Source: Verrucomicrobiota bacterium (GTDB lineage Bacteria; Verrucomicrobiota; Verrucomicrobiia; Opitutales; Opitutaceae). From it: 64,000 bases of DNA. Location: assembly GCA_016235555.1 (NCBI GenBank), contig JACRKC010000016.1:1-64000 (forward strand), in the 5' to 3' direction. Both the position numbers and the translations under genes were made by a program. Shown here piece after piece: positions 43,436-57,840 of the stretch. The notes under the pieces are model-generated. The model did not search any database, was not told the DNA's origin, and saw only the letters and a list, made by a program, of their open reading frames with translations. Numbering within the stretch: the stretch's first letter is position 1; every line of letters starts with the position of its first letter.

Positions 43436-43664
43436 GCTGGGAGGTGGGGCGGCGATGAGGAGCGCGCCGTCAGAAACGGGAGTCGAAGGGGGACACGGGA
43501 GCCGAAGTCAGCCTGATGCGCGAGGCTTGATGATCGCTCGCTTTCTTCGGCCCTAGCTCGGGGCCGAACAGCAAATGCTCGGGAAAATCGAGAGAACGAT
43601 TACGAGGACGAGAACGATTTTCGGTGATCGCGATCGCCCGCCGGTGACCGAAAGGCCCCGCCGC

Positions 43665-45704: not shown

Positions 45705-45817
45705 TGCGCTAACATCCGGTAACGGCAAGCCCGGTGGCAAGCGGCGTTCAACCGCTGGATCAAGCGTCGAAAGAACGAGAACGAGTGCGAGAACGAGAAC
45801 GAATCTGGCTGATTCCG

Positions 45818-45941
45818 GGGCGCATCTCACTTTCTTGCACTGCGGAGGGGCGCTTTTCCAAGCGCCCACGCCCGGCGGTAGAAAACCGCCGCTCCGCCGC
45901 TCCGCCGCTCTCTCCGGACTGCAAGAAACTGAGATGCGCCC
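45818..45941. mobile_element. 124-bp MITE-like element with 9-bp target duplication
   Basis: The ends GGGCGCATCTCACTTTCTTG and, on the other strand, GGGCGCATCTCAGTTTCTTG are near-perfect terminal inverted repeats. CTGATTCCG flanks it on both sides (45809-45817 and 45942-45950). Inside are the hairpins GGGCGCTTTTCCAAGCGCCC and GGCGGTAGAAAACCGCC. Without it, the flanks restore the alignment to the VOC gene region (43611-43640). It encodes nothing, so a transposase elsewhere would have to move it. Confidence 0.85.
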
Positions 45942-45948
45942 CTGATTC

Positions 45949-46059
45949 CGATCGCCCGCCGGTGATTGACAGGCCTCGTCGTCCACTTCGCTTCGCAACT
46001 GAACATCCCCTCGTTGCCGTAGCGATCGATGAGGCTGCCCCAGTTGCCGCCCTAGGGCA
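45949..46059 (-). pseudogene. Duplicated 3-prime fragment of the VOC gene
   Basis: These 111 bp align without gaps to 43631-43741. The minus-strand reading is GGNWGSLIDRYGNEGMFSCEAK, equal to the C-terminus of the VOC protein apart from a few changes. The Trp codon before GG is now TAG, and the stop codon is lost. It is not a working gene. Two MITE-like elements flank it. Confidence 0.88.
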
Positions 46060-46063
46060 GCGC

Positions 46064-46204
46064 GGGTGTGACTCAAACTGAGGTCAGCAATTTGTAGCGG
46101 CGGTCTATGACCGCCGAACGAATGCCATTGGCGCAACGTCGGCGGTCATAGACCGCCGCTACAGCCGAGGCATTCGAAAACTGACCTCACTTTGAGTTGC
46201 ACCC
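46064..46204. mobile_element. 141-bp MITE-like element with 9-bp target duplication
   Basis: The terminal repeats are GGGTGTGACTCAAACTGAGG and GGGTGCAACTCAAAGTGAGG (plus TCAG each). GGGCAGCGC occurs directly on both sides (46055-46063 and 46205-46213). The centre is a long GTAGCGGCGGTCTATGACCG hairpin. A relative in the other orientation is at 29361-29475. Its ends resemble those of the 124-bp element, so both may use one transposase. Confidence 0.83.
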
Positions 46205-46243
46205 GGGCAGCGCTCCGGAAGAAACGTGACAGCGCAACGCCGG

Positions 46244-51858: not shown

Positions 51859-51972
51859 TGGGTGCATCTCAGTTTCTTGTTGTCCAGTGAAAGACGGAGC
51901 GGCGGTTTTTAACCGCCGAGCTTGGGCGCTTGGAAAAGCGCCCCTCCGCGGTGCAAGCAAGTGAGATGCCCG
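51859..51972 (-). mobile_element. MITE-like element, reverse relative of 45818-45941
   Basis: The ends GGTGCATCTCAGTTTCTTG and, on the other strand, CGGGCATCTCACTTGCTTG match the termini of the 124-bp element. The inner hairpins GGCGGTTTTTAACCGCC and GGGCGCTTGGAAAAGCGCCC are the same in reverse order. A target duplication is not clear (GCGGGT occurs on both sides). Confidence 0.75.
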
Positions 51973-52032
51973 AGCGGGTGAAGCGCAGAGAGCACCTTGC
52001 AAACGCGGCTGGCCGGCTTAGACCCGTCCGGC

Positions 52033-56176: not shown

Positions 56177-57274
56177 ATGAGCGAACTGAAACGCACACCG
56201 CTGCGCGACTTCCATGCCGCCCATGGGGCCCGCCTCGTCGACTTCGCCGGCTGGGAGATGCCGGTGCAATATCGCAGCATCCTCGAGGAGCATAAAGCCG
56301 TGCGGCGCGCGGCCGGGCTCTTCGACGTGAGCCACATGGGCGAGGTGGACGTGAGCGGGCCGGAGGCGGGCAAGTTCCTCCAGCATCTCGTCACGAACGA
56401 CGTCGCGAAGATGTTTCCGGGGCGCATCGTCTACTCGCCGATGTGCTACCCGACGGGCGGCGTGGTCGACGATCTGCTCGTCTACATGTGGGCGCCGGAG
56501 CGGTATTTTCTCTGCATCAACGCCGGCAACATCGCGAAGGACCTCGCGTGGATCCGCGAACAGGCGAAGGGCTTCGCGGTGACGATCGACGACCGATCGG
56601 ACGACTACGGGCTGCTGGCCGTGCAGGGACCGCGGGCGGCGGCGATCGTGCAGTCGCTCACCGGGGCGAAGTTAGGCGCGGTGAAATACTACCACTTCGT
56701 CGAGGGGCCGGTGGCGGGTTATCACTGTCTGATCAGCCGGACCGGTTACACGGGCGAGGACGGCTTCGAGCTCTACGTCAATGCAAGCGAAGTCGTCGCA
56801 CTCGCGGAGGCGTTGCTCGCGGCCGGTGCGCCGCACGGGCTCGAACTGGCGGGACTTGGCGCGCGCGACAGCCTGCGGCTCGAAGCGGGTTATCCGCTCT
56901 ACGGCCACGAAATCACGCAGGACATTTCTCCGCTCACGGCCGGGCTCGGCTGGACCGTGAAGCTGGACAAAGGCGACTTCGTCGGCCGCGCCGCGCTCGC
57001 CACGGAAAAACAAAACGGGGCGCCGAACAAGGTCGTGTTTTTCAAAACCGGCGACCGTCGTATCGTGCGAGCGGACGCGCCGGTGCTCGACGCGGGCGGC
57101 GCGACGGTCGGCCGCGTGCTTTCGGGCACGCTGTCGCCCATCCTCAACGAGGCGATCGGCTCGGCCCTGGTGACGAGCGCCGCGGCGAGCGCGCCGCTGC
57201 TGGTGGACATCCGCAGCACGAAGTTGAATTTGCATCCGGTCAAACCGCCGTTCGTCGAACTGAAGAAAGGGTAG
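56177..57274 (+). CDS. gcvT: Glycine cleavage system T protein
   Basis: The 365-residue aminomethyltransferase carries [45 protein letters not shown], the folate/lipoyl site region [14 protein letters not shown] (Asp98/Asp99), [36 protein letters not shown] and [10 protein letters not shown]. It moves the aminomethyl group of the H-protein to tetrahydrofolate, releasing ammonia. It precedes gcvH by 73 bp that hold a palindromic repeat. No glycine riboswitch was recognised in the 96 bp upstream. Confidence 0.96.
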
Positions 57275-57332
57275 GCCGGGCTTTACGCCCGACATTTTCA
57301 TTGTCGGGGATAAACCCCGACCTACACAATCG
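57275..57332. repeat. GGGCTTTACGCCC...GGGGATAAACCCC repeat between gcvT and gcvH
   Basis: The outer GTAGGCCGGGC and CCCCGACCTAC ends pair, and each side forms its own hairpin. It is like 29486-29549. It occupies most of the gcvT-gcvH spacer, so it should be in the shared mRNA. Confidence 0.8.
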
Positions 57333-57731: not shown

Positions 57732-57766
57732 GCGGTGGTTCGCTCGGCGGGAAGCGCCCGTTGGGA

Positions 57767-57840
57767 GTAGCGGCGGGCGTCCCTGCCCGCTGGTCTGGTG
57801 GTTTCGTCAAACCTCGGTGGGCAGAGACGCCCGCCGCTAC
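57767..57840. repeat. GTAGCGGCGGGCGTCC...ACGCCCGCCGCTAC inverted repeat
   Basis: The outer ends are complementary over about 14 bp, with CCTGCCCGC and GTGGGCAGAG inside. It lies between the convergent gcvH and TonB-receptor genes. Confidence 0.8.

Follow-up and report, generated by a model that had tools for sequence, protein, structure and literature searches.

The element at positions 45818-45941 of the window (the whole 64,000-nucleotide stretch that was analysed) is almost certainly a non-autonomous MITE of the ISKra4 family (p-MULT 4 DDE transposases, Mutator superfamily), and its core is a doublet of REP hairpins. The same ends were found on autonomous IS elements of other Verrucomicrobiota, so a parent is now supplied for a large repeat family of this phylum. 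More tentatively, we propose that REP doublets may have been captured repeatedly by MITE ends of unrelated transposase families, and that DDE transposons, not RAYTs alone, could be a main route of REP multiplication. This possibility is raised by three end families in the genome (A and B with 9-bp target duplications, C probably with a 3-bp TNA duplication) and by more than 20 unrelated palindromic cores on one 22-bp end pair across Verrucomicrobiota.

Structure and insertion sites of the focal MITE

The focal element belongs to a group of MITEs which we call family A and is 124 bp long. Both copies of its target duplication (TSD) are CTGATTCCG, exact over 9 bp, and the two 22-bp ends (GGGCGCATCTCACTTTCTTGCA, and GGGCGCATCTCAGTTTCTTGCA as the reverse complement of the right end) differ at one of 22 positions. 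The original prediction of a 124-bp MITE-like element with near-perfect terminal repeats and a 9-bp duplication was borne out by these data. The interior reads GGAG-GGGCGCTT-TTCC-AAGCGCCC and then inverted GGAG-CGGCGGTTTTCTACCGCCG, forming two REP-like hairpins with their tags outwards. Family-A copies usually measure 116 bp; a tandem CCGCTCCG duplication in the core adds 8 bp to this one. The family has no coding capacity, and its modal length of 116 bp is too small for a transposase gene. The features are collected in Table 1.

Table 1. Positions of the focal MITE, its parts and related features in the window.
Feature	Position	Strand	Basis or remark
Left TSD copy, 9 bp, CTGATTCCG	45809-45817	+	sequence
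Left terminal inverted repeat, GGGCGCATCTCACTTTCTTGCA	45818-45839	+	ends same as autonomous ISKra4-family IS L270, L283, L299, L099
Core hairpin R1, GGAG-tagged, GGAGGGGCGCTTTTCCAAGCGCCC	45844-45867	+	29/30 R1 copies in family-A MITEs (1.55-Mb sample)
Core hairpin R2, GGAG tag on - strand, GGAGCGGCGGTTTTCTACCGCCGG	45872-45895	-	R2 copies mostly in family-A MITEs
Right terminal inverted repeat, GGGCGCATCTCAGTTTCTTGCA read on - strand	45920-45941	-	sequence
Right TSD copy, 9 bp, CTGATTCCG	45942-45950	+	sequence
Family-B MITE, 141 bp at 46064-46204, TSD GGGCAGCGC on both sides, core a GTAG-tagged REP doublet GTAGCGGCGGTCTATGACCGCC	46055-46213 (including TSDs)	n/a	
Diverged paralogous site without element, downstream end of glyoxalase/VOC gene (gene on - strand)	43613-43640	+	alignment
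Second family-A copy, 114 bp	51860-51973		hairpins R2 and R1 in opposite order

An empty site at 43611-43640 had been taken to show that the element inserted after a duplication of the region. The site is real and lacks the element: around 43.6 kb the sequence aligns with the focal flanks with no insert (right flank 104/123 identities, about 85%; left flank 30/37). However, its nonamer, GTGATCGCG, is only 6/9 like the focal TSD. Therefore it is a diverged paralogous site and not a recent exact pre-integration sequence, and the conclusion on the order of events was overstated, since this site alone is also compatible with an element that was already present when the region was duplicated and was later lost precisely from one copy. 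A nested insertion on contig C10 (56228-56379), where a family-A copy with TSD ACTCAAACT lies within a family-B MITE, provides a cleaner and exact natural empty site, as the sequence without interruption can be read from intact copies of family B.

Positions 45951-46063 of the window are what remains of a duplicated glyoxalase/VOC gene, comprising only the 3' end and the downstream flank. Homology ends at the family-B MITE, but the TSD of this MITE is perfect, and hence the gene was truncated independently of it. The second family-A copy had been placed at 51859-51972 and is refined here by one position; it is decayed, with a 2-bp deletion in the ends and a remnant TSD only.

Family A in the genome and its ISKra4 parent in other genomes

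The 16-bp end motif of family A (at most one mismatch) was found 174 times in the whole 8.03-Mb genome, whereas its reversed control gave 0 hits. From the genome, 1.55 Mb were sampled as stretches, in which 118 family-A ends (2 in the reversed control) made up 49 element pairs, or about 50 full copies, with lengths mostly of 116 or 151-154 bp. Near-perfect ends numbered 109 in the genome and 41 in the sample; scaling from them suggests about 130 full copies genome-wide. Tabulation of the target duplications had been proposed as a check, and over the 49 pairs the flank identity peaked at 9 bp (mean 0.65 vs 0.29-0.41 at other lengths), with a TSD of at least 8/9 in 22 pairs, that is, under half of the copies. 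This peak, together with transposase-bearing elements that have the same ends, supports the interpretation as a transposed MITE. Beside solo family-A ends no transposase was recognised in the ORFs read, and what follows the ends is degenerate or belongs to a different core type. One family-A copy (G000 C125:24612-24727) has a perfect TSD and a left end starting like family B (GGGTGTGACTCA), which suggests that both kinds of end may be accepted by a single transposase, or that ends may recombine.

A transposase gene between the same ends, which the original prediction had proposed to search for, exists in other Verrucomicrobiota. Four autonomous IS of 1473-1477 bp share the family-A ends: L270 (1473 bp, both 22-bp ends an exact match to the MITE), L283 (1473 bp), L299 (1474 bp, TSD TGCGGCACA) and L099 (1477 bp, TSD CCCACTCAC, transposase frame-shifted), the last three with near-exact ends. 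The transposases of L270 and L299 are intact and scored 209.7 and 233.4 bits with the NCBIfam ISKra4 model NF033572, of which the curated cut-off is 205 bits. In the WY5.bin88 genome, the same ends occur both on L283 and on several MITEs of 132 bp. The window's own 140-contig assembly revealed no IS with exactly the family-A ends. It contains two intact ISKra4 IS, L061 and L062, with 9-bp TSDs (AGCGTGGGA; CCAGCGCCC/CCGGCGCCC) and transposases sharing 53-55% identity with the L270 enzyme; the ends of both IS match the MITE at 16/22 positions, and for this difference they were rejected as the exact parent.

The transposase group including ISKra4 is characterized by inverted repeats of 18-39 bp and direct repeats of 8-9 bp (PMC3942029), and the 22-bp ends and 9-bp TSD of the MITE fit these ranges. 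The GG...CC termini are also shared with the ISKra4 family. Unlike the IS of about 1475 bp, the MITEs are 116-154 bp long, contain no transposase gene and have a core unrelated to the IS. Verrucomicrobia are not among the phyla listed in PMC3942029, and MITEs are not mentioned there.

REP cores and different cores behind the same ends

Like REPs and REPINs, the cores consist of hairpins with a GTAG or GGAG tag, occurring in many copies and often as inverted doublets. Most of these hairpins were located within MITEs in the 1.55-Mb sample: 29 of the 30 R1 hairpins in family A, 33 of the 43 R2 hairpins in family A (35 of the 43 when all MITE ends are counted), and 82 of the 104 hairpins of a third type, R3 (GTAGCGGCGGTC...), in family B. 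Six of eight free R3 doublets checked showed no trace of MITE ends, and therefore the R3 REP also exists free. Neither the REP-doublet core nor the family-B MITE lying 122 bp from the focal element had been mentioned in the original prediction. Family B makes 9-bp TSDs and has 243 end motifs in the genome, from which about 200 copies are estimated. A remnant transposase (L063) ends in a sequence 20/24 like the family-B end, and by this resemblance family B was probably moved by another ISKra4-type IS.

Family C has ends ATACCAACGGCTG and a length of 133-139 bp, with 13 copies in the sample (for example C108:78826-78963, outside the window). A 3-bp TNA fits best as its target duplication (mean identity 0.90) and is probably the true one. 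All 13 copies contain a doublet of the GTAGGTCGGG type, one with a decayed left hairpin, and 25 of the 66 hairpins of this type lie within family C. This type also flanks RAYT candidates, and so the idea that RAYT-flanking REPs never occur in MITEs was rejected. R1, R2 and R3 were found beside none of the genome's 10 Y1_Tnp loci, where the GTAG REPs are of different types. Families A and B do not include certain further common REP types, for example GGAGCGCGTTG. In the window, REP doublets of the GTAGGTCGGG and GTAGCGGCGGGC types lie at 57271-57325 and 57766-57840, outside any MITE found. The core hairpins showed little compensatory change (14 double-change cells, most of which fall at a single end position), which gives no evidence for a structure under selection after insertion; as a sign of selection on the core, compensatory change was weak and was dropped.

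The search of other genomes was seeded with the exact 22-mer end, so the conservation of ends among the 102 stretches retrieved, mostly from Verrucomicrobiota MAGs, is partly ascertained. They contained 69 paired copies, and 36 of the 67 testable ones had a 9-bp TSD at 8/9 or better. The cores of the 69 copies fold strongly (mean z -5.2 vs shuffles; -0.05 for random segments) and form about 30 clusters, almost every one of which is confined to a single genome; the same ends are combined with genome-specific palindromes. Against the IS interior, the cores matched only by overlap with the terminal repeats or over 14-21 bp, and therefore the MITEs did not arise from the IS by simple internal deletion. 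Judged by sequence comparison, the family-A core is not IS-derived and is a GGAG-tagged REP doublet. GTAG or GGAG tags were present in 10 of 27 foreign core types (0.8 in shuffles), but two control-tag sets reach 8, so the tagging of foreign cores is only suggestive.

In an even draw across the phylum the exact 22-mer was rare (3 of 388 genomes), and in two of these three genomes a transposase with 53% or more identity to the L270 protein is present as well. A 0.4-Mb sample of the relative G003 (5,957,605 bp, one contig) contained no REPs framed by such ends. REP-carrying MITEs are therefore not universal, and they were rejected as a general trait of REP-rich Opitutaceae.

Proposed mechanism, alternatives and known systems

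An ISKra4 transposase would bind the 22-bp ends in trans and move the MITE, leaving a staggered-gap duplication of 9 bp at the target. The enzyme may come from an ISKra4 type absent from, or now lost in, the assembly, or from L061 or L062 acting across. Because the core is made of two GGAG-tagged REP hairpins, a REP doublet would be copied with each transposition, and most copies of the R1, R2 and R3 types in this genome may have spread as MITE cargo. The cores would have been acquired repeatedly and independently, since from genome to genome the palindromic cores between these ends are unrelated. Some findings count against the ISKra4 reading: the window's own assembly yielded no IS with exactly these ends, fewer than half of the copies keep a good TSD, the exact 22-mer is rare in the phylum draw, and compensatory changes in the hairpins are few. 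REP insertion into a MITE, template switching during repair and palindrome growth within the MITE are possible routes of entry. Three REP types lying mostly between DDE-transposon ends with target duplications offer a concrete route of spread other than RAYTs, which bears on how REPs come to number in the hundreds and on why a matching RAYT is missing for some types.

The GGAG-tagged hairpin doublet in the core would also be expected of a REPIN or BIME moved by a RAYT (IS200/IS605-type tyrosine transposase), with the terminal repeats as incidental flanks. Several of the 10 Y1_Tnp hits in the genome have GTAG REPs on their flanks, and the free doublets of the family-B core type (6 of 8 without MITE ends) also favour this explanation. 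We nevertheless regard it as very improbable, and as a main route RAYT is refuted by the 9-bp TSDs lying exactly at the terminal repeats; RAYT/IS200 transposition is not known to make such target duplications. In addition, R1 and R2 flank none of the RAYT candidates, and identical ends surround unrelated cores and occur on ISKra4 IS. An origin from another DDE family making 9-bp duplications, such as the IS4, IS1 or IS256 groups, is just as improbable: a 9-bp TSD by itself is not diagnostic, but the same ends are carried by four full-length ISKra4-type elements and the L270 and L299 transposases score above the ISKra4 cut-off, so we counted this origin as refuted. Least probable of all, with hardly any weight left to it, is that the hairpins are functional as transcription terminators or mRNA-stabilising structures kept by selection, and that the repeats spread by recombination. 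The hairpins are indeed strong, and REPs are known from positions downstream of genes (PMC3733652); against this stand the TSDs, the nested insertion, the copies at unrelated sites and the few compensatory changes.

The ISKra4 MITE with a REP core has precedents among REP-containing MITEs and framed REP dimers, so it is ordinary as a MITE and new only in its modular, REP-loaded cores. QMITE2 of Coxiella burnetii, as presented in parts of PMC5896051, is likewise a MITE (150-190 bp) with variable 7-11-nt duplications and a GTAG REP inside; there it has other ends and one REP per element, and is not tied to ISKra4, whereas the core of the focal family is a REP doublet varying by genome behind the same ends. 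In Anabaena variabilis and Halothiobacillus neapolitanus, inverted repeats regularly frame REP dimers, which the relevant parts of PMC3733652 describe as REPs inserted in palindromic targets, assigning no transposase or TSD; in our case a pair of transposon ends with 9-bp duplications forms the frame. REPINs also consist of two tagged hairpins in opposite orientation forming one unit, but they are thought to use RAYTs (PMC3116915), whereas the unit found here rides within DDE-transposase ends.

The interchangeable palindromic cores behind one end pair represent a natural experiment on the requirements of a MITE core, which would have to be strongly self-complementary but may have any sequence. 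The MITE was also found on MAG contigs labelled Akkermansia muciniphila (CAMAUZ) and Klebsiella pneumoniae (CALQJI), namely L218, L219, L222, L230, L242, L252, L287 and L235, and these labels may be wrong.
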